A stretch of 64,000 nucleotides of DNA, taken from assembly GCA_943736015.1 (NCBI GenBank), contig OX031065.1, positions 50,074,992-50,138,991 of the forward strand, in the 5' to 3' direction. Shown in pieces: positions 3,128 to 63,440 of this stretch. The notes under the pieces are model-generated. The model searched no databases, was not told the origin of the DNA, and saw only the letters and a program-made list of their open reading frames with translations. Each line of letters opens with the position of its first letter. Position 1 is the stretch's first letter. This DNA comes from Tridacna crocea. Lineage: Eukaryota > Mollusca > Bivalvia > Cardiida > Cardiidae. Position numbers and translations under genes: made by a program.

Positions 3128-3548
3128 ATTGTGTCTTATTTTATTTTATTTCTTGCATGGAGATGGGTACAGATGTCTCATATTTGGTATATAAGACATT
3201 TGAAGCTACCTCATCATTCTCAAATTACATATGTACATATACAATCATCCAAATGTATTCATGTGTCTATAATCATCTGCATTCACCCATTCCCTTCCCC
3301 AAACAAGTCTCCTGCAGGCTAATTTACAAACACCCATGTTAATTTATAGATAACAACATGATTTATACATGAAGACAATTGTGTGAATACATGTACACTA
3401 GAGTTAAAGGGGTAGCAGCTAGAATGCTAGTTACCAGTATTTTCTCCATTTCCTGCATTGTTTACACGAGCTTTTCTTCCTTTAAAGTCCTTGAGGAAAA
3501 GCACTTATACTGAAGGAAGTAACCTCCATACAATCTACGGTATTCATT
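3128..3548. other. AT-rich stretch; only a MITE remnant seen
   Basis: No coding signal was found. A decayed hairpin piece (agaatgctagttaccagtat) lies at about 3420-3450. Confidence 0.4.
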
Positions 3549-5888: not shown

Positions 5889-7635
5889 CAAGAGGACCAT
5901 GATGGTCCTATATCGCTCACCTGAGTATATTTGTAACTTATATGGTTTATCAAGGGCAGGCTATTAATTCTTTTCAAATAAGGCATACCCTGGGGTTTGT
6001 CACAAAAATATGTTTACAGATTTTCTTCTTTGTCTTTGACCAGTGGAGCTAAAAGCTGCTGCTTATCATCAATCTTCCTCTTCACAGTGTCTTGTTCCCT
6101 TTTTGACTTGTAGTTTAGCCATTACCAGACGACAAAATTTTAAACCGTTCCAAATTGAAACAAATTGCAGACGACATTTTAAAATGTATCTAAAATGAAA
6201 AATAAGTGATCTATATGGTAGAAAAGATTGTGAGAAAGGAGAAATTGCTTGTTACAAACAATTTCTCCTTTTTAGATGGAATTGATTTTAAAAATTTCCT
6301 TCTATGATTCCATGTGAAATAGTGTGCACCAGGGCACAGAGCCAAAATATGACCCTAAGGAGATAATTTTAATTATTTTTATAAAGGGCCACTAGATGAT
6401 GCTACATGCAAAATATGAATGCTCTAGCCTTTATGGTTTGTCACAAGTAGATTTTTAAAAGATTACCTTCTTTGTTTCTATGTAAAATAGCCCAAATATG
6501 ACCGCAGAGGGATAATTCTAGCAATTTTGGTAGAAGATTATCAGATTTTGCTACATAGCAAATATGAATGCTCTAGCCATTACGGTTTGTCAGAAAAAGA
6601 TTTATTGAAGGTTTCCTTCTTTGTTTCTATGTAAAATAGGGTGTGCCCAGGCAAAGCCCAAATATGACACAAGGGGAATAATTTTAACAATTTTGGTAAG
6701 GGGTCACCCAATAATGCTTCAAACAAAATATGAACGCCCTCCGCCTTATGGTTTGTCACAAGAAGATTTTTAAAGATTGTAAAACAGGGTGCGCCCGGGC
6801 AGAGCCCAAATATGACCGCAGAAGGATAATTTCAACAATTTTGGTAGAAGATCATCAGTTAATGCTACACACTAAATAGGAATGTTCTAGCCATTATGAT
6901 TTGTCACCAGAAGAAGTTTTAAAGATTTCCTTCTAAATTTCTATGTAAAATAGAGTGCGCCCGGGCAAAGCCCAAATATGACCCCATGGGAATGATTTTA
7001 ACAATTTTGGTAAGGGGTCACCCAATGATGTTTCAAACGAAATATGAATGCTCCCAACCTTATGTTTTGTCACAAGAAGGTTTTTAAAGATTTTAAAATA
7101 GGGTGTGCCCGGGCAGAGCCCACATAGGACAGCAGAGGAATAATTTTAACAATTTTGGTAGAGGATCATCAGATAATGCTACATATCAAATATGAATGCT
7201 CTAGCCATTATGGTTTGTCAGAAGAAGATTTTTTAAAGCTTTCCTTCTTTGTTTCTATGTAAAATAGAGTGCGCCCGGGCAAAGCCCAAATGTGACCCAA
7301 GGGAAATAATTTTAACAATTTTGGTAAAGGGTCACCCAATGATGCTTCATACAAAATATGAATGCTCCCGGCCTTATGGTTTGTCACAAGAAGATTTTTA
7401 AAGATTTTTTCCATTTTCAGCCATTTTGTTGCCATGGCAACCAGAGTTTTTGTTGGAATTAAATTCTTTTAACAATTTTTGTAGAGCTTCACCCAAGGAA
7501 CATTCCTGCCAAGTTTTATCAAGATTGGCCTTCTGGTTTTGGAGGAGAAGATTTTTAAAGAAATTGTTAACAGACAGACGGACAGATGGACGGACGGACG
7601 GACGCCAGACGATGACGTTGTGCTCAGGTGAGCTA
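5889..7635. mobile_element. HINE/pearl-like element with about seven internal tandem units
   Basis: The left end carries a small hairpin (aggaccatgatggtcct) and cgctcacctgag; the right end carries ctcaggtgagc, its inverse, after a gacggacggacg microsatellite (7565-7605). Units of about 150-167 bp contain 'gcgcccgggcaaagcccaaa'; the phrase recurs near 6330, 6487, 6640, 6787, 6958, 7108 and 7268. This is the layout of bivalve pearl elements, later viewed as non-autonomous Helentrons (HINEs). No helicase or Rep coding is present. Confidence 0.75.
6114..6285 (+). mobile_element. MITE fragment inside the HINE
   Basis: cattaccagacgacaaaatt through a GAAATTGCTTG hairpin (about 6238-6272). It is embedded in the element that itself sits in a MITE. 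Confidence 0.6.
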
Positions 7636-9157: not shown

Positions 9158-9382
9158 TTAACCCTTTACTCAATGGATACTCCTACGCATTGCTTGTAGG
9201 AGCCTTTGGAAAACATTGTGGCTAAAGGTGAAATTGCTCGTGACGAGCAATTTCACTTTTTGTCACAATGTTTTCTATGCTATCAAAAGTTATTATATAC
9301 ATATAAGAAATGGCTTCATCCTTGCTGTTATTCAGGGTCAATTAGAGATACCATTAAAATACCGTAAGGGGTAAAGGGTTAA
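9158..9382 (+). mobile_element. TTAA-hairpin MITE, subfamily C (CCCTTTACTC ends)
   Basis: TTAACCCTTTACTCAATGG to ggggtaaagggTTAA. The core is gaaattgctcgtgacgagca, and the right half carries 'ggcttcatccttgctgttat'. Confidence 0.8.
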
Positions 9383-25721: not shown

Positions 25722-25935
25722 TTAACTCATTACCACACAATCCCTACTTTTGACGCCACTGAGAAAGAAGCCTTTTGAAAACACTGTGGGAAAAGGACAG
25801 CATTTTCTCCTTTTCCCACAGTGTTTTCTACCCTTCCCAGAACAAATTTCAAATTTTCATTCACGTTTATTTTGTCATCTGCAAATGCTTTCAATTTGGA
25901 CCAGTCTAAAATTTTCTCTTGTGGTAAAGAGTTAA
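25722..25935 (-). mobile_element. TTAA-hairpin MITE, hairpin centre deleted
   Basis: TTAACTCATTACCACAC to cttgtggtaaagagTTAA. One arm goes straight from ggaaaagga to cagcattttctcc, so about 17 bp at the centre are gone. Both arms carry CACTGTG/CACAGTG. Confidence 0.82.
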
Positions 25936-26765: not shown

Positions 26766-38883
<12,118 letters not shown>

Positions 38884-39335: not shown

Positions 39336-39346
39336 CCAGTTATGAA

Positions 39347-39415
39347 AAAAAGTTATTGACGAGCAAACAAATTTTTTACCCTGGATAATTTGTTTGCTCG
39401 TCAATAACTTTTTTA
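39347..39415. repeat. Perfect 28-bp inverted repeat with 13-nt loop
   Basis: The left arm is 39347-39374 (gttattgacgagcaaacaaa within it) and the right arm 39388-39415. Every base pairs. Confidence 0.9.
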
Positions 39416-42736: not shown

Positions 42737-42962
42737 TTAACCTTACACTCCATAGATACTCATTTCTATGAATTGCTTGTAGGAGCCTTTGAAAAACATT
42801 GTGGCAAAAGGTGAAATTGCTCGTGAGGAGCAATTTCACCTTTCGCCACAATGTTTTCTACACTATCAAAAGTTGTCATATACACATAAGAAATGGCTTC
42901 ATCCTTGCTGTTATTTAGAGTCAGAGATACCACAGAAATGCCTTATGGGGGTAGAGGGTTAA
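42737..42962 (+). mobile_element. TTAA-hairpin MITE, subfamily C
   Basis: TTAACCTTACACTCCATAG to gggtagagggTTAA. Core gaaattgctcgtgaggagca. Confidence 0.8.
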
Positions 42963-47848: not shown

Positions 47849-48073
47849 TTAACCCTTTACTCCATAGATACTCATTTGTACGCATATATCTTGTAGGAGC
47901 CTTTGGAAAACATTGTGACAAAAGGTGGAATTGCTTGTTATGAGCATTCCACCTTTTGTCACAATGTTTTCTTCCAAGGGGTGTCATATACACATAAGAA
48001 AAGGCTTCATCCTTGCTGTTATTTAGGGTCTATTAGAGATACCATAGAAATGCCTTATGGGCTAAAGGGTTAA
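47849..48073 (+). mobile_element. TTAA-hairpin MITE, subfamily C
   Basis: TTAACCCTTTACTCCATAG to atgggctaaagggTTAA. Core gtggaattgcttgttatgag, right arm changed (cattccac). Confidence 0.82.
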
Positions 48074-48487: not shown

Positions 48488-48694
48488 CCTTTACCACACA
48501 AAGACGACTTTTGACAACCCTATAGTCAAGAAACCTTTTGAAAATATTGTGGGAAAAGGAGAAAATACTGGTAGCCTTTTCCCACAATGTTTTCTAGCCT
48601 CAAAGAAAAACCATTTGATATGAGCCACATTGAAACTCGTCTGCAAATGCTTTTAATTAGGACTGGTCTAAAATTTTATTGTGTGGTAATGGGT
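48488..48694 (-). mobile_element. TTAA-hairpin MITE, hairpin centre deleted
   Basis: ccctttaccacacaaagacg to gtgtggtaatgggTTAA. Core shortened to aaatactggtagccttttcc. Confidence 0.75.
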
Positions 48695-49610: not shown

Positions 49611-52600
49611 GTAATTAAATCTGCTGAGAGCAAACTTAGACTAGGAATTTGTTCGTTCAAGCCCGCCTTTAGCAACACACATGTTGAATTTTGAGGTTTT
49701 GGATAGTGCAAGGACTGTGATTAGATTTTTTTTTTCGTAAAGAAAACTGCAGTGTTTGCTCTTAGTGTAACTGGTAAGCTCAGATTGAATTGGATAAATG
49801 CCCCCCACAATAATTCTTAGTTTTGTACTCTGCATACTGTATGCCATACTGTATTGTATAGGATATGATACCTGGCAATAATCGATTATGCATGGTATCG
49901 CGTACAGCTTAATGATCAATAAGTCAGTAGCGCATGTGATTGTTGACACAAATTAGCAAATCAATAATTGATTTGTTTTTCTAAAGAGCCTGCAATGCTT
50001 TTTGTGTTAATTAAAGTTTTTTTTTACCTAGCCACTAAGATTCAAGCAGAAATGAAGGAAAATATAAATTTGACATCGTACATATATGACCTAATGAAAG
50101 ATGTGATTTTTGCAGGTTTACAAGATAGGGCTACAGAGAGTGTAACTTCGTACAAATTTCATACAAGTTATAATGTCCTTTGAAAAAAAACCCTTCCACC
50201 CAGCAAAAATTCATAGCGTAAAAGGGTTTTAATTACTATACACCACATAATGTTAACCCTTTACTCCATAGATACTCATTTCTATGCATTGCTTGTTGGA
50301 GCCTTTGGAAAACATTGTGGCAAATGGTGAAATTGCTTATGACGAGCTATTTCACCTTTTGCCACAATGTTTTCTACACTATCAAAAGGTATCATATACA
50401 CATAAGAAACGGCTTCATCCTTGCTGTTATTTAGGGTCATTTAGAGATACCATAGAAATGCCTTGTGGGCTAAAGAGTAAAATGATCTACATTATTCACT
50501 GAAAGAAAAATATCAAGACAAACTTGAGGTCAATAATCAGAGCTTTGAGATAGTTTATTTTTTAGAAAATACCCTGAAATAAGAAACCTAGCTTCTCACT
50601 TAGTGTTTAGATGTAGGTTTACACTTTTTTGAGAACATATTCACCAGTCTTTGATGTTGGTAGAAAGACATTTTATAAAACTGCAAGCAAAGAAAAAAAT
50701 AATGAAAAGAAAAAAAATATTTATTTCAGGCTTTGGTATTCTGTGCAACAGTTGCATTTGCATTGTATGCCTATTTTTACTATGATCATCTACATTTCCA
50801 TGTTACACATGCATATGCATCACTGGGATACTCATCAGCCCAGCATCAGGTTGGACAACGATACCTACATGGTAAGAACCTTTGCTGTTTTTTTATGGCA
50901 GGCTTTATGATCCGCACATACATGTACACAGAGCCCTGGTAGCTCAGTCTGGTCCCCAGCTTGGCCAGTTTCTGTCCAAGGGTTGATGATCAGGTTGATG
51001 ATCAGGACAGGTTTCATTCCTCTCTCACGGCATAGTATTGTTTGTGTGGGAAAGCAGCCAGTGGCTTTGAAAGAATATTGTGCAGAGCACTTGTTAACTC
51101 TTTACCAAACTACAAAATTTTGGACCAGGCCAAATTGAAACCATTTGCAGATGACAAAAGATGTGAGTCAAAAATTGAAATTTGATTTGGAAAGGGTAGA
51201 AAACATTGTGGGAGAAGGAGAAAATGCTGGTTACCGGCATTTTCTCCTTTCCCATAATGTTTTCAACCTAGTCTTTCTTTCTCAGGGTCGTTAAAGGTCG
51301 GGATTGTGTGGTAAAGAGTTAAAGAAATTCCAGGAAAGCAAGAATGGGTGTACTTGCTGTGATATAACTAGAATAATGTTGAAAACAGTGTTAAACATCA
51401 ACAAAAACAATCAATTAAAAGCACATTCAAACACAGTTGCCATCAATATTTTTGAAATTTAATGTTTCAGCATAAGATAGTATTTGACAATACTGTGGTG
51501 TTACAAGTAATATTTTTTTCCCAAGTGTTTTATTTCTGTTTAGAAAAATTTTCTCCGTTCACATAAACTAGTTTTCAAAAGTTTTCTCAGTTACTTTACA
51601 ACTAAACTTCAGAGCTCTTTTGAAAACATTTTGGGCAAACGAGAAAATGCAAGTAATCAGAATTTTCTCCTTTTCCAACAGTGTCCTTTTAAGAAGAAAT
51701 TCCATCATTTGATCCACATTTAAGTTGTTCACTGACAATGTATTTGATGGGGCAGGCAAGAAATTTAGGTGTGAGTGACCTATTATTTCAGGTAAAGGAG
51801 TAGAGAAACATGATGGAAAAGCCATGGAATGGTTCAGGTAATTTTCTTCACCCTAATCTCACATTTCTCTTGTGGTTTAAAACAGTCTTTTATCTAATCT
51901 GACACACTTGGAAAGATGAAGGTGAATTTTGCAAAGGATATTTTAACTCTATACCAAATGACAAAATTTTAGACTGGTTCAAATTGAAAGCACTTGCAGA
52001 CGGCAAATTAAACATAATCCCCAAAATTGAAATATGTTTCTAGGAGGGTAGAAAACATTGTAGGAAAAGGAGAAAATGCTGGTTACCAGCATTTTCTCCT
52101 TTTCCCACAACATTTTCAAGAGGCTTCTGTCTTAGGGTCATAAAAACCAGGAATTGTTTGGCAAGGGTTAATCAGAGAGAAAAACACTGATAGAATAATA
52201 AATATTGAAACTAGAAGTACTGGTACTGTTGGCAAAAGAAAGTTTAGTTTTAACCTGTGGCCAAACAGCATATTAATTCTCCACTGGTCCAAATTCAATG
52301 CATTTGTAGACTACAAATTAAAAGAGGCGAAAATGACAAAATTTGTTCTCGATAGAGTAGAAAACATTGGGGAGAAAAGGAGAAAAATGCTGGTAACCTC
52401 CTTTTCCCACAATGTTTTCAAAAGCCTTCTTCCTCAGGGTCATTGTAAGTTGGATTGTGTGGTAAAGGGACAACTGTTCTGTTAGTGACTGGAGCGTTGA
52501 CTAGTGCACTAAAACAAGCCGTCAGACTTTCGATAATCTCCATTTTTTTAATTGTTGTATGTATGACTGAAATATTCATACTCATATTAAGTGATACATC

Positions 52601-54730
52601 TACATTTCAGAAAAGCCTCTGATCAGGGGCATCCTCATGCTGCCTATAATCTAGCCATTGGACATCTAAAAGGGATGAAAACTGATGTTAAACCAGGGTA
52701 ATGAAATCATGCTCTTTTCGTTTTGTCTTCTGTGTAATTTTAATTTGTTTTCTTTCAGTGATTTGTAAAGAAAAAAGGGATGTGATATTTTTATTTACTG
52801 TAGAAGGTTTTCAGTCTTTAACCCTTTCCCAAACAATCCCTTGTTTTTACATGTCTGCTCTGCAGTACAAGTCTTTTGAAAACACTGTGGGAAAAGGAGA
52901 AATTGCTTGTAACAAGCAATTTCTCCTTTTCCCGCAGTGTTTTCTACCCATTTGGAGAACTTTCTGCCATTTTTCTCAAATTTGAAATTGTCGTCTGCAA
53001 ACTCTTTGAGTTTAGAAGAGTCTAAAATATATCGTTTGGGAAAGGGTTAAAAGTTGAAACCTTTGCTACCAAAATTAACCCTTTCCCAAAACAAGCCCTG
53101 GTTTTTACGCGTCTGCAGTAAAAGTCTTTTGAAAACACTGTGGGAAAAGGAGAAATTGCTCGTAACGAGCAATTTCTCCTTTTCCTACAGTGTTTTCTAC
53201 CCTTTTTGAAAACTTTCTACCATTTTCTCAAAATCTAAAACTGTAGTCTGCAAACTCTTTCAGTTTGGAAGAGTCCAAAATTTCTCGTTTGGGAAAGGGT
53301 TAAATATGAAGGAGAAAGCAGTATCTCATTGCAGAAAAATGTGGAGAAAATTTTAGTGGTTGCTTTAAAAAATGCTAATGAATTTGAAGATGTATGGTTG
53401 TTCAGTTGACACTTTCTTTTTGTGAGTTTGAGGCTTGTATCATCTAAAAGTCATGCAATGGTTAACTTTTAACAGGCAGCTGTAGAATATTGATTTTTGC
53501 AATGAGCACTCACAGGCTCAGAAAATCAAGCTGATTGGTCTCATGAGATGGAGTGTTGCCTATCCCTGTGTATGAATTTAGAGTCCCTGGCAGTAGAAAG
53601 TCAATGATTTTGTATATCAGAAGTGGCCTTACTTTCTAAAACTAGATTAACCCATTACCACATAATCCTTACTTACGACGACCCTGAGAAAGAAGCCTTT
53701 AGAAAACATGGTGGGAAAAGGAGAAAATGCTGGTAACCAGCATTTTCTCCCTTTACCACACTGTTTTCTACCCTTCACAAAACAAAGTTAAAATTTTCAG
53801 TCAATTTTATTTTGTCGTCTGCAAATGCTTTCAATTTAGAAAAACCTAAAATTTTGTCATTTGGTAAAGAGTTAACCCATTACCACACAATCCCTACTTT
53901 TGACACCCCCGAGACAGAAACCTTTAAAGATGCCTGTCTACAGCCGGTGAGCAGAAACGCTGTTAAATTTCGAAAAGAAAAATAAAATGGTACAGAAATC
54001 TGTCCTTTGTGTACACAAGGATAAATTACTGACATATTTCGTGTAAATGAAGAAAGAAACACGGGGGTTTTTGTGAAAACCCGAAAATTGGCCAGAAGAA
54101 AACTGGCTGACGATCGAAACTGTAAACACTGGCCGTGACTCACGGAAATTTATCGTTGGTTTCAGCCTAGAGTCAGATACGGTGTAACTTACATATAGGC
54201 CTCGATCTCCGTCTAAAAATAGAGGCTGCAACAGAGAAGCATCCATTTTCCTTTATTTACCGCATCAAGGCCAAGGTCAAATATAGTCACGTTACAGTAT
54301 GCATGATCATCATACGAATCTACCCGAGTGTATAACAGATATCGAAAATCTTCGATTCAAAATCCGGAAACGACCAGTCTGTTTACATTGAAGGCTGCAA
54401 GTCCGTGAAATGCATTTTCTATCAGGCGTAATCTAAGCAACCTTGCAACCGTCAGGCGCAATATTTGGCATAGATATATTAGAATGACTATATTTTGATA
54501 AAATAAAAACAAAATGAGTTAAAACTGGCTTAAAATGAGTATTATTGCCTCTTTAAATATACCTGTAGTTAGTGAATCTGGGCCTTGGATACTATGTGAC
54601 ACTGTATAACATGTATACGTATATGTCTCATTTCAGGGAAGCACACAAGTTAATTCACCATGCTGCATCAAAGGGTGTAAAACAAGCCCATAAAGTCCTG
54701 AATCAAGTCTGTTCCAGAGGAGGATGTTAA
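49443..54730 (+). CDS. Small single-pass membrane protein with SEL1-type repeats, complete gene with five coding exons
   Basis: Coding exons are 49443-49610, 50730-50871, 51792-51837, 52611-52697 and 54637-54730. All introns are GT-AG, phases join (0,1,2,2) and the total is 537 nt, 178 residues plus TAA. Residues 5-10 (ETESLL) form an [DE]xxxL[LI] acidic dileucine motif. A basic stretch (ARRKK) follows, then one membrane segment at about 57-74 (ALVFCATVAFALYAYFYY). From about 84 come two SEL1-like repeats, with A-x-x-x-L-G-x-x-x-A-Q spacing, YLHGKGVEKHDGKAMEWFRK and DQGHPHAAYNLAIGHLKGMK, ending EAHKLIHHAASKGVKQAHKV. SEL1 repeats are alpha-alpha protein-protein interaction units; an endosomal/lysosomal location is inferred from the dileucine motif. 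I chose the ATG at 49443 (AAAATGG). In-frame ATGs at 49422 and 49335 are alternatives, but the latter lies in repeat-like DNA. I do not recognise a named orthologue. Confidence 0.88.
50253..50483 (+). mobile_element. TTAA-hairpin MITE, subfamily C, in intron 1 of the SEL1-repeat gene
   Basis: TTAACCCTTTACTCCATAG to ttgtgggctaaagagta. Core gaaattgcttatgacgagct. Confidence 0.82.
50730..50871 (+). CDS. SEL1-repeat membrane protein, exon 2
   Basis: The acceptor TTATTTCAG ends at 50729 and the donor GTAAGA starts at 50872. The exon encodes the membrane segment and the first half of the first SEL1-like repeat (AYASLGYSSAQHQVGQRYLH). Confidence 0.9.
50933..51416 (+). mobile_element. SINE-like element split by a MITE, intron 2 of the SEL1-repeat gene
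   Basis: The head gagccctggtagctcagtct has a tRNA A-box look. The body gtgggaaagcagccagtggc is followed by the MITE 51094-51322, then gcaagaatgggtgtacttgc and the tail cagtgttaaacatcaacaaa. Confidence 0.65.
51094..51322 (+). mobile_element. TTAA-hairpin MITE inside the SINE
   Basis: TTAACTCTTTACCAAAC to gtgtggtaaagagTTAA. Core gctggttaccggc. Confidence 0.85.
51600..51750 (-). mobile_element. MITE fragment
   Basis: cttttgaaaacattttgggc to cactgacaatgtatttga. It ends about 40 bp before exon 3. Confidence 0.55.
51792..51837 (+). CDS. SEL1-repeat membrane protein, exon 3 (46 nt)
   Basis: The acceptor TATTTCAG ends at 51791. The exon encodes GKGVEKHDGKAMEWFR, the second helix of a SEL1 repeat. 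The donor is TTCAG/GTAATT at 51838. It joins its neighbours in phase 1 and 2. Confidence 0.85.
51943..52171 (+). mobile_element. TTAA-hairpin MITE in intron 3 of the SEL1-repeat gene
   Basis: TTAACTCTATACCAAAT to ttgtttggcaaggGTTAA. The hairpin is near-perfect. Confidence 0.85.
52249..52472 (+). mobile_element. MITE with hairpin centre deleted
   Basis: TTAACCTGTGGCCAAAC to gtgtggtaaaggga. Core aaaatgctggtaacctcctt: the right arm start is lost. Confidence 0.68.
52611..52697 (+). CDS. SEL1-repeat membrane protein, exon 4
   Basis: The acceptor TACATTTCAG ends at 52610. The exon encodes KASDQGHPHAAYNLAIGHLK and GMKTDVKPG, the classic G-x-x-x-A-x-x-x-L-(G) repeat. The donor is GTAATG at 52698. 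Confidence 0.9.
52818..53050 (-). mobile_element. TTAA-hairpin MITE, subfamily B
   Basis: TTAACCCTTTCCCAAAC to gtttgggaaagggTTAA. Core gaaattgcttgtaacaagca: both arms carry the same change relative to the 53075 copy. Confidence 0.87.
53075..53303 (-). mobile_element. TTAA-hairpin MITE, subfamily B
   Basis: TTAACCCTTTCCCAAAA to gtttgggaaagggTTAA. Core gaaattgctcgtaacgagca. Confidence 0.87.
53647..53875 (-). mobile_element. TTAA-hairpin MITE
   Basis: TTAACCCATTACCACAT to catttggtaaagagTTAA. Confidence 0.87.
53872..53923 (-). mobile_element. MITE left end cut by a 0.6-kb element
   Basis: TTAACCCATTACCACAC to gagacagaaacct. The remainder is not found beyond the insert. Confidence 0.7.
53928..54552. 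mobile_element. 0.6-kb TTAA-flanked element, copy 1
   Basis: TTAA at 53924-53927 and 54553-54556. Ends agatgcctgtctacagcc and tattgcctct. Nearly identical to 61994-62587. A minus-strand frame (54246-53938, 102 codons) ends SVSAHRL and stays open in both copies. Confidence 0.75.
54637..54730 (+). CDS. SEL1-repeat membrane protein, terminal exon 5
   Basis: The acceptor CTCATTTCAG ends at 54636. The exon encodes EAHKLIHHAASKGVKQAHKV, LNQVCSRGGC and TAA at 54728-54730. Confidence 0.9.
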
Positions 54731-59030: not shown

Positions 59031-59228
59031 GGGTCCGTATTCACCAACCATTCTTAAGAACGTTCTTTGTCTAAATCTTCAAGATTTTCTGACTGTGAAA
59101 GTAACAGGACTTCTGATTGGCTAAACCAATTGGTTTAGCCAATCAGAAGTTCTGTTACTTTCACATTGACAAAATTCTGAAGAATAAGCCTAGGAATGTT
59201 CTTAAGAACGGTTGGTGAATACGGAGGA
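59031..59228. mobile_element. Foldback element with about 90-bp arms
   Basis: gtccgtattcaccaaccatt at the left and cggttggtgaatacgg at the right, with ctgattggctaaaccaattg / gtttagccaatcag at the centre. It lies in the likely 3'UTR of the BACK-domain gene. Confidence 0.75.
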
Positions 59229-59483: not shown

Positions 59484-61160
59484 TCAGTCACTATCAAACT
59501 GAGTATCACTGTCATAATATGGTCGGAAATCATGACAGCCATAAGACAAGTCCTCATAGGAGTTTACATCATCATCACTATAAGAGTTTTCACTATGATC
59601 ATAATACAAATATCCTCTATCATTTTGACTTCTCTGTTTGCAATGTGGGCAATTCAGTGCACAGGAAAGTTTTCTTGTCGGCAATGAAATCTGAAACACG
59701 TTTGAAGGAGCGGACACATACCCAGCTTGATTTATTGGAATTGACTCCCATAATTCCACCTGACTGCTCTTATCACCAACCGCCTGACTTTGATGTGCAC
59801 GCAGCTTTTCATGCGAGGTATATGAGATACATAACAAACGTGACCCAGCATAGCTTCTCTTGTAACGAAACCATTTATTCTCACAACAAAGGTACCTTTC
59901 AATGTATCGCTCTTCGTCTTTTATTGAACAGAAACTAGATTTGCTTGTCAACCATTTGCGAGACAAACATGGACCTATTTGTTTTACCACATTTATGCAA
60001 CACTTTTTGTCGTAAACCACAAAACCTGATCCTGAGGTTGACATCATACTCATATTCATCGTAATGCTGTTGTAAATATTCTTTATGGACAACGCGTCAA
60101 GTGAATAATCTATTTTGTTGAATAAATACAATTCAGCAGCATCTTTGGACAACATAGCAATAGTTGTACCATTGGAACAGACCTTAGATATTTCTTTTCT
60201 CAAACAGAGTATGGCTGTAAGTTCAGTAGTTTCATCTTCTATTTGTCCGACGTACAAAACAGAGACTGAAAAGTTCTTTTTAATAGCAAGTCTCGAATTT
60301 ATTTTCGCACATGCAGTCATTCTGTCTATTGGAGTTAATTGAGGTAAATCATCCGAGCCTAACTTCTCATATTCAACAAGCTTTTTTGATACTAGGACGA
60401 GTTCATGATCGTGAATGTACTGTTCTGTTAGTTTCAATATATCTCCATCATTTCCTGTTTTCACTTTAATCTTTGATTTTTTTACTATGTTTGTTTCTAA
60501 GTTTAAAATGCATATAGATCTTTGTGTTCTACTGTCGATATAGGTGTTCTTGAACATGTACACATTTGAATGTAGTCGTCCTTGGACACCTTCAATACTC
60601 TTCACCATTTGTTTGTAAAACCCATCAGGTACTGGTTCCACGGTATCAACACTGACGGAACACCATCGCCTCCGTGTTATATCAAAACACTTAAGTATAC
60701 CATCCTGGTATAAATTTGGAAAAAGTAAAACATCATGAGTACTGAGGCTGTCAATGGATCTAAGTTCAGCAATAAAGCTGGGGCTACATGCTTCATGCAC
60801 TAGGGGCTCACGTAGGACAACATTTTGTATAAAATCAGCTTCGGAATCTTCAAAATTGAGGCACTGCAATAGACGCTCAAATTCCCCTTTTCTTTTCATT
60901 TGGCTCTTCGTCCAGCGAACAAGAAAAGAAAACTTATCTTGAATTCCCACATAGGACAGCCGAGGATCCTGTAAGAGGTACAGAACAGACTCTGGTGTGA
61001 TACTTAGCATCTCATCTTTCAACATCATTTCTATTATATGGCCTTCCATATACTCTTCACAGGATGATAAAAAGAAGTCGTAAAGGCTTGCTAATTTTAC
61101 CATTGTCATGCAGTTATCCTCTGTTACTTTTGTACGTTTTATCCATCTCACACATTCAGC
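59484..61160 (-). CDS. BTB-BACK (kelch-like family) protein, 3'-terminal coding exon
   Basis: A 558-codon open exon on the minus strand, entered at a CAG acceptor (complement of 61161-61163, TAATTTCAG/GCTGAATG) in phase 0 and ending at TGA (59484-59486). It begins AECVRWIKRTKVTEDNCMTM. Residues about 1-115 look like the BACK domain that follows BTB in kelch-like proteins: NCMTMVKLASLYDFFLSSCE, then LSITPESVLYLLQDPRL and a VRWTK segment. The next roughly 350 residues have only weak kelch character (DGILKCFDITRRRWCSV) and the canonical double-glycine blades are not obvious. The C-terminus has a CPHCKQ motif and an acidic, tyrosine-rich tail (SDDDVNSYEDLSYG ... YDSDTQFDSD). The BTB exon must lie beyond 64000. 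A Cullin-3 adaptor role is inferred only. It cannot be the partner of the 5.5 kb BTB exon, because on this strand 5' exons lie to the right. Confidence 0.85.
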   Translation of the reverse strand, partial: AECVRWIKRTKVTEDNCMTMVKLASLYDFFLSSCEEYMEGHIIEMMLKDEMLSITPESVLYLLQDPRLSYVGIQDKFSFLVRWTKSQMKRKGEFERLLQCLNFEDSEADFIQNVVLREPLVHEACSPSFIAELRSIDSLSTHDVLLFPNLYQDGILKCFDITRRRWCSVSVDTVEPVPDGFYKQMVKSIEGVQGRLHSNVYMFKNTYIDSRTQRSICILNLETNIVKKSKIKVKTGNDGDILKLTEQYIHDHELVLVSKKLVEYEKLGSDDLPQLTPIDRMTACAKINSRLAIKKNFSVSVLYVGQIEDETTELTAILCLRKEISKVCSNGTTIAMLSKDAAELYLFNKIDYSLDALSIKNIYNSITMNMSMMSTSGSGFVVYDKKCCINVVKQIGPCLSRKWLTSKSSFCSIKDEERYIERYLCCENKWFRYKRSYAGSRLLCISYTSHEKLRAHQSQAVGDKSSQVELWESIPINQAGYVSAPSNVFQISLPTRKLSCALNCPHCKQRSQNDRGYLYYDHSENSYSDDDVNSYEDLSYGCHDFRPYYDSDTQFDSD

Positions 61161-61163
61161 CTG

Positions 61164-61640
61164 AAATTATGATTAAAACCAAGGCTCACATAATAATTAT
61201 GATAAACATGGTAATTCAATCCCAGATAATTCAAACAATTACATTAATATTCTATTGCTACAAATGATTCATTCAAAAGCCCATGCTGTATGTACTAACA
61301 TAGACTATCAGGTGATAGGCTGCTGGTTGTATATAGCTTTCAGGTTCAAGTTAACGTGACCACACAATGTTTGAAGATCTATATAAAAAGAAATGCAAGG
61401 GCTCTTTAACCAAATAAAAGCAACAAAATTTTATGATAACAACTTGCAATATTACATGTTCACAAAAGTCTCTCATGATCCTTTTAAAAATGACATTTAG
61501 TGAAATAAATATAAAATCTAAGGTTCAGTGCCTGTCTACACTTCAAATGTTTTCTTGAGAACAACCAGTTTATTAAAGAATGGAATTTTGAACTTAATCA
61601 GTTTGAAAGAGTAGTAAAAAAACATCGGTGGATGGCCGTT
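61164..61640. other. Intron of the BACK-domain gene, no recognised feature
   Basis: AT-rich. No BTB-coding exon was found here on the minus strand. Confidence 0.4.
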
Positions 61641-63440
61641 TCAGACTGATATCTTTTCCTCTGAAACCGCTCGTCAGAATTTGAAATAATTTCATAGAAA
61701 TGTTCCTTGGACGACCCTTTCCTATAACTATTCGCGAAATTTTAATACGCCGAAAAACATGGCCATAGTTGTTGTGGTGGTGTGGGGTGTGTGTGTTTGT
61801 GTGTGTAGAGGGGGGAACGTTTTGCAATGTCAACAGTTCTTTAAACATTTAAACATCCTAACATCCTAAACCGCTGGCCCAAACTTGGCTGGACTGTTCC
61901 TTGGGAGGTCCGCTTTGGTAAGTGTTCACAGAATTTGATTCCATCAAAAACTATGTTTCCCATCGCAACCAAGTGGAATACCAAATTCTTTAAAGATGCC
62001 TGTCTACAGCCGGTGAGCAGAAACGCTGTTAAATTTCAAAAAGAAAAATAGAATGGTACAGGAATCTGTCCTTTGTGTACACAAGGATAAATTACTGACA
62101 TTTATCGTGTAAATGAAAAAAGAAACACGGGGGTTTGTGTGAAAAACCGAAAATTGGCCAGAAGAAAACTGGCTGACGATCGAGGCTGTAAACAATGGCG
62201 GTGACTCACGGAAATTTATCGTTGGTTTCCGCCTAGAGTCGGATACGGTGTAACTTACATATAGTTTTGATCTCCGTCTAAAAATAGAGGCTGCAACAGA
62301 GAAGCATCCAAGGCCAAGGTCAAATATAGTCACGTTACAGAATGCATGATCATCATACGAATCTACTCGAGTGTATAACGGATATCGAAAATCTTCGATT
62401 CAAAATCCGGAAACGACCAGTCTGTTTACATTGAAGGCCGCAAGTCCGCGAAATGCATTTTCGTAATCTAAGCAACCTTGCAACCGTCAGGCGCAATATT
62501 TGGCATAGATATATAAGAATGACTATATTTTGATAAAATAAAAACAAAATGAGTTAAAACTGGCTTAAAATGAGTATTACTGCCTCTTTAAAGATATTCT
62601 GTGAAGAAACCGCTGGTCAGATTTTGAAAAAAATAAAAAAAGAAAAATGTTCCTTGGGTGACCATTTCTAAAACTTGTTCGCAAAATTTTGACCCGTAGA
62701 AAAAAAAGATGGCCGTGTTGGATTTGGGAGGGGGGGAGTCTTTGCACTGAATGGACATAAAGAATTTCTTTGAAATTCTCATTCTCTTAAACCCCTTGTC
62801 AGATTTTGAAATAATTTCACACAATTTTTCTTTTGGTGCCCCTTTTGAAAATGTATTCGCGAAATTTTGATCTGTCCAGAAAAATGGCTGTAATGGTGGT
62901 GATGGTGGAGGCTATTCGCACAATACAGACATGAAGAAATTTAATTTTCATCAAAAAACTGTGTAGGTATTTTGATAAAAAGGGCTATTTCAGATGTCAA
63001 CCTATACCAGGTGAGTGCACTGGTGAGAAATGCTGAAATACACACATTCTACTAGATGTATTTGATAGCTATGTATTATTGCAAGAGGTAATATAAAACT
63101 TATCTTTGGAATACATGAACATGCATAATAGTTCACCACTTATCAAAAGGGCCTCTATCTGGGTGTTCATTGCCTTCTTTTTTACCATTTTTGTACCATA
63201 TGACGGATCGTTTTCTAAATTCTATATAAGCCTTATTTGCAGAGTTCTGATTCGTCAAGGACATGGATGTGGTGATGATTGTAGGAGTGGTGACAAGTTT
63301 TTAAATGATTCTTATGGGTGACCTTTTCAAAATGGCAAAATAATAATTTTATTTCTAGATTTCATTACTTAAAAAGATGGCTATGGTCCTCTAAAAAATT
63401 CAGGTGAGCGATCCAGGTCCCTCATGAAGCACTTGTTTTT
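61640..63440. mobile_element. HINE-like tandem element, interrupted
   Basis: Units repeat 'gaaatgttccttgg(g)tgacc', 'ttcgcgaaattttgatc' and 'aaaaacatggcc' near 61700, 61890, 62650, 62840 and 63320. The right end phrase is aggtgagcgatccaggtccc (63403-63422). Contains the 0.6-kb element at 61994-62587. Confidence 0.6.
61994..62587. mobile_element. 0.6-kb TTAA-flanked element, copy 2
   Basis: TTAA at 61990-61993 and 62588-62591. Collinear with 53928-54552. The matching minus-strand frame is 62333-62004 (109 codons, ending SVSAHRL). Confidence 0.75.

Follow-up and report, generated by a model that had tools for sequence, protein, structure and literature searches.

Covariation in the internal palindrome of a TTAA-flanked MITE from Tridacna crocea lies between element families and is absent within the largest one

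Introduction

The CMITE families of Acropora corals are TTAA MITEs with a conserved interior (PMC2872659), and in the part of that account on which we draw they share with the elements described here a TTAA target duplication, CCCTTT-type ends, the occurrence of neighbouring copies, and an interior more conserved between families than the ends. They differ in being 96–108 bp long with a different 75-bp interior, and the same part of PMC2872659 does not describe a long palindrome in them. Palindromes are known from another quarter, as the excerpted account of the piggyBac and piggyBat transposases has a dimer of cysteine-rich domains binding palindromes near the ends (PMC11707139); these are likewise palindromic motifs internal to the element, although they are 14–19 bp long and near the ends, whereas the palindrome of the present family is 67 bp long and lies 55 and 107 bp from the ends. 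Template switching between the arms of inverted repeats is known from yeast genes (PMC8604942) and from RNA genes (PMC8794818), and in the sections of these papers that concern us it resembles what we propose here in homogenizing arms, with simultaneous paired changes, and in inverting spacers. The settings differ, as there it operates in yeast coding DNA (PMC8604942) and RNA genes (PMC8794818), and here it is proposed for a MITE from few events.

The elements were found in a stretch of 64,000 nucleotides of Tridacna crocea DNA (contig OX031065.1), which we refer to as the window and to which all coordinates and counts apply.

Results

A TTAA-flanked element with a long internal palindrome

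Two neighbouring elements in the same orientation, at 52818–53050 and 53075–53303, are copies of a non-coding MITE, a non-autonomous DNA transposon, that measures about 230 bp, is flanked by TTAA, has piggyBac-like ends and contains a 67-bp palindrome. They are 89% identical over the 193 bp compared, their palindromes have 33-nt arms that are 97% complementary about a 1-nt spacer, and both have the ends CCCTTTCCC.../...GGGAAAGGG; CCCWTTACC is present in many copies of a related family, family A. The elements and palindromes referred to individually are these:

52818–53050, + strand: family B element, first of the two neighbouring copies, TTAA to TTAA (start TTAA at 52818, end TTAA at 53047–53050)
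52878–52944, + strand: palindrome inside 52818–53050 (33+1+33, one arm mismatch, pair 31 T:A)
53075–53303, + strand: family B element, second neighbouring copy, TTAA to TTAA (start TTAA at 53075, end TTAA at 53300–53303)
53131–53197, + strand: palindrome inside 53075–53303 (33+1+33, one arm mismatch, pair 31 C:G)
2533–2758, − strand: third full family B element (B profile, 235 bits)
53647–53875, + strand: family A element adjoining the two copies, query for the A profile
33047–33113, + strand: family A palindrome, both arms of which carry two substitutions and a one-base insertion (insertion read from the sequence)
9159–9382, + strand: family C element (C profile), query for the C profile
42738–42962, + strand: family C element (C profile, 147 bits)
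47850–48073, + strand: family C element (C profile, 132.5 bits), palindrome 47906–47971 with private paired changes at pairs 13 and 23
50254–50481, + strand: family C element (C profile, 157 bits)

A blastn search of the window with the palindrome gave 98 matches, of which 76 were aligned and 75 kept (that at 3423 was dropped), the rest being short or one-armed; 66 of the 75 belong to family A, five to B and four to C. The elements are thus small, homogeneous and present in high copy, as MITEs are, with 75 palindromes in 64 kb. Exact TTAA is found near both ends in 31 of the 47 elements counted as full length by our own cut on profile matches, both neighbouring copies among them, and the inverted repeats carry the terminal CC(C/T)T motif that the relevant part of PMC2872659 gives for TTAA or piggyBac-like MITEs. 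The consensuses of all three families have a common layout of 55 + 67 + 107 bp. The three subfamily cores reported in an earlier note on this DNA, A (GAAAATGCTGG), B (GAAATTGCTCG) and C (GTGAAATTGCTCGTGACG), each occur in the window, and GGAGAAANTGCT is matched 169 times with at most two mismatches, against a mean of 22 over 100 shuffles.

Membership of the CMITEs was rejected because their interior was not found in the window, the best match to the 60-nt internal consensus given in the part of PMC2872659 used here being 12–13 nt (E 0.15). The two papers listed for four 14-nt core strings have unrelated titles, and none of the literature matches listed describes this family; the exact core-A pattern had no match in viral_contigs or genome_contigs, which hold viral and prokaryotic DNA and are little informative. 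We file the elements, on their sequence features, as a putative new family of TTAA or piggyBac-like MITE with a long internal palindrome, a kind already known.

Some copies are further rearranged. A partial A left end at 53872–53930 starts at the right TTAA of 53647–53875, so that two elements seemingly abut at one TTAA. In the A palindromes at 25777–25828, 48540–48594 and 52360–52419, between 9 and 15 bp are missing from the centre or right next to it (alignment gaps of 15, 12 and 9 columns), losses that might be hairpin-prompted deletions.

Family consensuses differ by changes in both arms

When the consensuses are compared without gaps, A and B share 61 of the 67 bases of the palindrome and 87 of the 136 of the flanks, and A and C share 57 bases in each of these two regions; by these counts the palindrome is far more conserved between families than the flanks. 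The initial 13 bp are identical at 11–12 positions in all three comparisons. Once the copies are oriented according to the matches of their elements, 57 of 66 family A copies and all five of B have A as the central base, and of the four C copies three have G there and one T.

The pairs at which both arms of a consensus are altered are position 8 (in B), 14 and 21 (in C), and 26 and 31 (in both B and C). Position 13 of the C consensus, a 2:2 tie on the right arm, was left out, giving five paired and no unpaired consensus differences against 9 paired and 166 unpaired changes within A copies (Fisher p 1.3e-6); five is a small number, two of the five are common to B and C, and the B and C consensuses rest on three and four elements respectively. 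Pair 8 is not cleanly fixed, being T:A in two of the five copies of B and, in family A, C:G in some copies. Four of the five consensus changes are complement flips, compared with 38 of the 198 changes counted in A copies (p 0.006). Complement flips have no G-U intermediate.

Covariation is absent within family A

The earlier note had proposed a covariation test across copies, and the outcome depends on which copies are included. In a mixed set of 40 indel-free palindromes (33 A, 4 B and 3 C) doubly changed cells number 26, compared with 6.2 in shuffles, and the covariation score is 0.117 against 0.066 shuffled. Double changes occur at 7 pairs, against 4.6 in shuffles, and 7 is matched or exceeded in 62 of 500 shuffles, and the doubly changed cells lie mostly at pairs 8, 14, 21, 26 and 31, which separate the families; the signal stems mainly from a few pair changes common to whole families.

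In the 33 indel-free copies among the 66 of family A there is no excess of either kind: doubly changed cells number 3 where shuffles give 2.6, and the share of paired cells is 92.5%, compared with 92.4%. Pairs were also counted in the 47 of 66 A copies that score at least 90 and have no more than three gaps, some of which contain small indels; the 47 have 166 single-arm changes, 9 paired changes and 6 double but unpaired changes. The 9 paired changes compare with 4.3 in shuffles (sd 2.0), and true partners have a co-occurrence ratio of 1.61, with values of up to 1.59 when the partners are slid. Alternative cuts give paired to single ratios of 12:246 (56 copies), 4:119 (39 copies) and 3:86 (33 copies). 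Covariation is therefore real between families only, and the proposition of the earlier note that both arms change together holds for the family consensuses and fails for variation among family A copies. Mismatches read on the + strand have no significant G-U bias (51 G-U against 44 A-C, p 0.54), and a family A copy has on average 3.7 arm mismatches.

Spread variants are scarce in the family A palindrome

We compared variants shared among copies with those private to one, using 37 A elements that score 95 bits or more, with CpG columns removed and, for the palindrome and flank rates given next, an indel-rich stretch of the right flank removed as well. Single-copy variants are equally frequent per site in the palindrome (0.82) and the flanks (0.81), but variants in at least three copies number 0.18 per site in the palindrome and 0.60 in the flanks (p 2e-4), and those in at least four copies 0.06 and 0.39. 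The inner 25 bp have 0.04 variants per site in at least three copies and the TIRs 0.50. Because single-copy rates are equal and shared variants are depleted, we read the palindrome as constrained during amplification, in the copies that multiplied, and little or not at all after insertion.

Other counts are less clear-cut. Of 12 palindrome alleles present in at least three A copies, eight never occur with their complementary partner, which selection for pairing in source copies would not predict unless these are recurrent mutations. A tree built on all columns assigns 103 terminal and 13 internal changes to the palindrome and 418 and 101 to the flanks, a weak contrast (p 0.044), and terminal changes per site are also lower in the palindrome (1.54 against 2.96); with a tree built on flanks only p is 1e-5, but such a tree is biased in favour of the effect.

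Individual copies consistent with arm-to-arm copying

The palindrome at 33047 has three changes present in both arms, and its exact strings CTCCCTTTCC and GGAAGGGAG are found nowhere else in the window. It fits arm-to-arm copying, although it could alternatively be a member of a subfamily otherwise absent from the window. The palindrome at 47906 has two private paired changes, and at the family A centre the base is changed from A to T in seven copies and from A to G in one, as spacer inversion would give, with several of the A-to-T copies poorly preserved. Together with the complement flips, these copies are consistent with template switching between the arms. The conversion between arms during transposition that the earlier note had offered as an explanation is supported as far as the copying goes, with 33047 a clear case and 47906 a less clear one, and the tie to transposition itself is putative.

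Arm correction after insertion was rejected as the cause of the low divergence of the palindrome, because such correction would be expected to erase changes about as often as it duplicates them, and we count 9 paired against 166 single changes.

Other features of the window

A Pfam search with seven ORFs identified a BACK (BTB/Kelch) domain in one and a PQ-loop repeat in two. The BACK domain is in a 560-codon open frame at 59484–61166 (− strand), the longest of the 53 listed ORFs of at least 90 aa. The ORFs at 53938–54252 and 62004–62399 (both − strand) encode peptides that are similar over a long stretch and thus reveal a further dispersed repeat; that at 53938–54252 has no Pfam match at E 0.001. 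There is a tandem array at 6286–7408 (314-bp unit, 3.6 copies, with subunits alternating between 166 and 148 bp), and arrays of a 52-bp unit occupy two stretches, each of about 7.5 copies, within 27851–28662. A separate 72-bp palindrome with no spacer at 59094–59165 is unrelated in sequence to the MITE palindrome, and an inverted repeat of different sequence with 31-nt arms and a 7-nt spacer is at 39346–39414.

Discussion

The reading we favour, with a probability of roughly 0.45, is that template switching yields the paired changes and that symmetric palindromes are favoured in amplification. Resident palindromes drift with no sign of structural upkeep; variants that have spread are scarce in the palindrome, and the family consensuses are symmetric. 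Paired changes would arise when one arm is copied from the other by template switching at a hairpin during DNA synthesis, and only copies with a symmetric palindrome would be amplified further, because the dyad would be used in mobilisation, either as a symmetric site bound by transposase or by a host factor, or through a possible role as a hairpin. By analogy with known transposon ends, a symmetric site that serves mobilisation would be retained in source copies and free to decay later.

The earlier note had raised selection on a structured nucleic acid, and for resident copies this could take the form of an RNA hairpin transcribed from the elements, such as a small-RNA precursor. A long and very stable RNA hairpin is indeed predicted, the folding energy of 52818–53051 being −100.8 kcal/mol where shuffled sequences average −45.8 (z −11.5), and the mixed-family covariation score is in its favour. 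Covariation beyond shuffles within a single family, the mark of such selection, is nonetheless missing from family A (3 against 2.6 cells), where unpaired changes dominate and the arm mismatches accumulated per copy also argue against it; the wobble test is negative (51 against 44) and no Rfam match at gathering score is present in the window. Selection on RNA structure in resident copies is largely refuted and we regard it as very improbable. A stronger contender, though still an unlikely one, is shared ancestry with rare events only, whereby the palindrome is functionless, was reset once per family at its birth by arm-to-arm copying, and seems conserved through being younger than the flanks or exchanged among elements. 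The disappearance of covariation within family A and the copying displayed at 33047 agree with this, as does the poor correlation of palindrome and right-flank distances (r 0.12, Mantel p 0.20). Palindrome and left-flank distances are however correlated (r 0.33, p 0.013), and the agreement between left and right flanks (r 0.37) is as good as that between the two halves of the right flank (r 0.38), so we see no sign of exchange round the palindrome and reject it; yet recent exchange is what this explanation must invoke for the depletion of shared variants in the A palindrome.

The difference between the two neighbouring copies is a separate matter. The earlier note described it exactly, as gcttg/caagc in the first and gctcg/cgagc in the second, and it falls at stem position 31, where both arms of the B and C cores have a CpG. 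It could reflect two separate CpG decays that kept the pair by chance and are unrelated to the core changes between families, an account we consider a realistic one at somewhat under even odds. Among the nine B and C copies both arms are changed in two (6221 and 52878) and the left arm only in two (47906 and 50308), so that two of four departures are single-arm, and the window, at 35% GC, has a CpG observed/expected ratio of 0.47; independent decay in each arm is thus possible, although 6221 and 52878 have an identical two-arm state that may be one shared event. Since it lies at a CpG and has single-arm as well as two-arm states, the pair-31 change is weak evidence alone.

Returning to template switching with amplification of symmetric copies, the lack of excess paired substitutions that the earlier note would have counted against its proposal is what we see within the large family A, but it does not extend to the source lineages, because the consensus differences are 5:0 against 9:166 and shared variants are depleted in the palindrome. 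A more specific version, which we put forward as doubtful, is that the palindrome would be a cis-acting part of mobilisation whose dyad source copies must keep, that arm copying would reach new symmetric states with no broken intermediate, and that families would thereby swap symmetric cores on a fixed 55 + 67 + 107 layout.

For transposon families in general, a covariation test on a mixture of families can look strongly positive from a few inherited changes. The common view of MITEs is that their movement depends mainly on the ends; in the spreading lineages of this family the interior appears more constrained than the ends, yet unconstrained after insertion, and it is this pattern of interior constraint that distinguishes selection for mobility from selection by the host.
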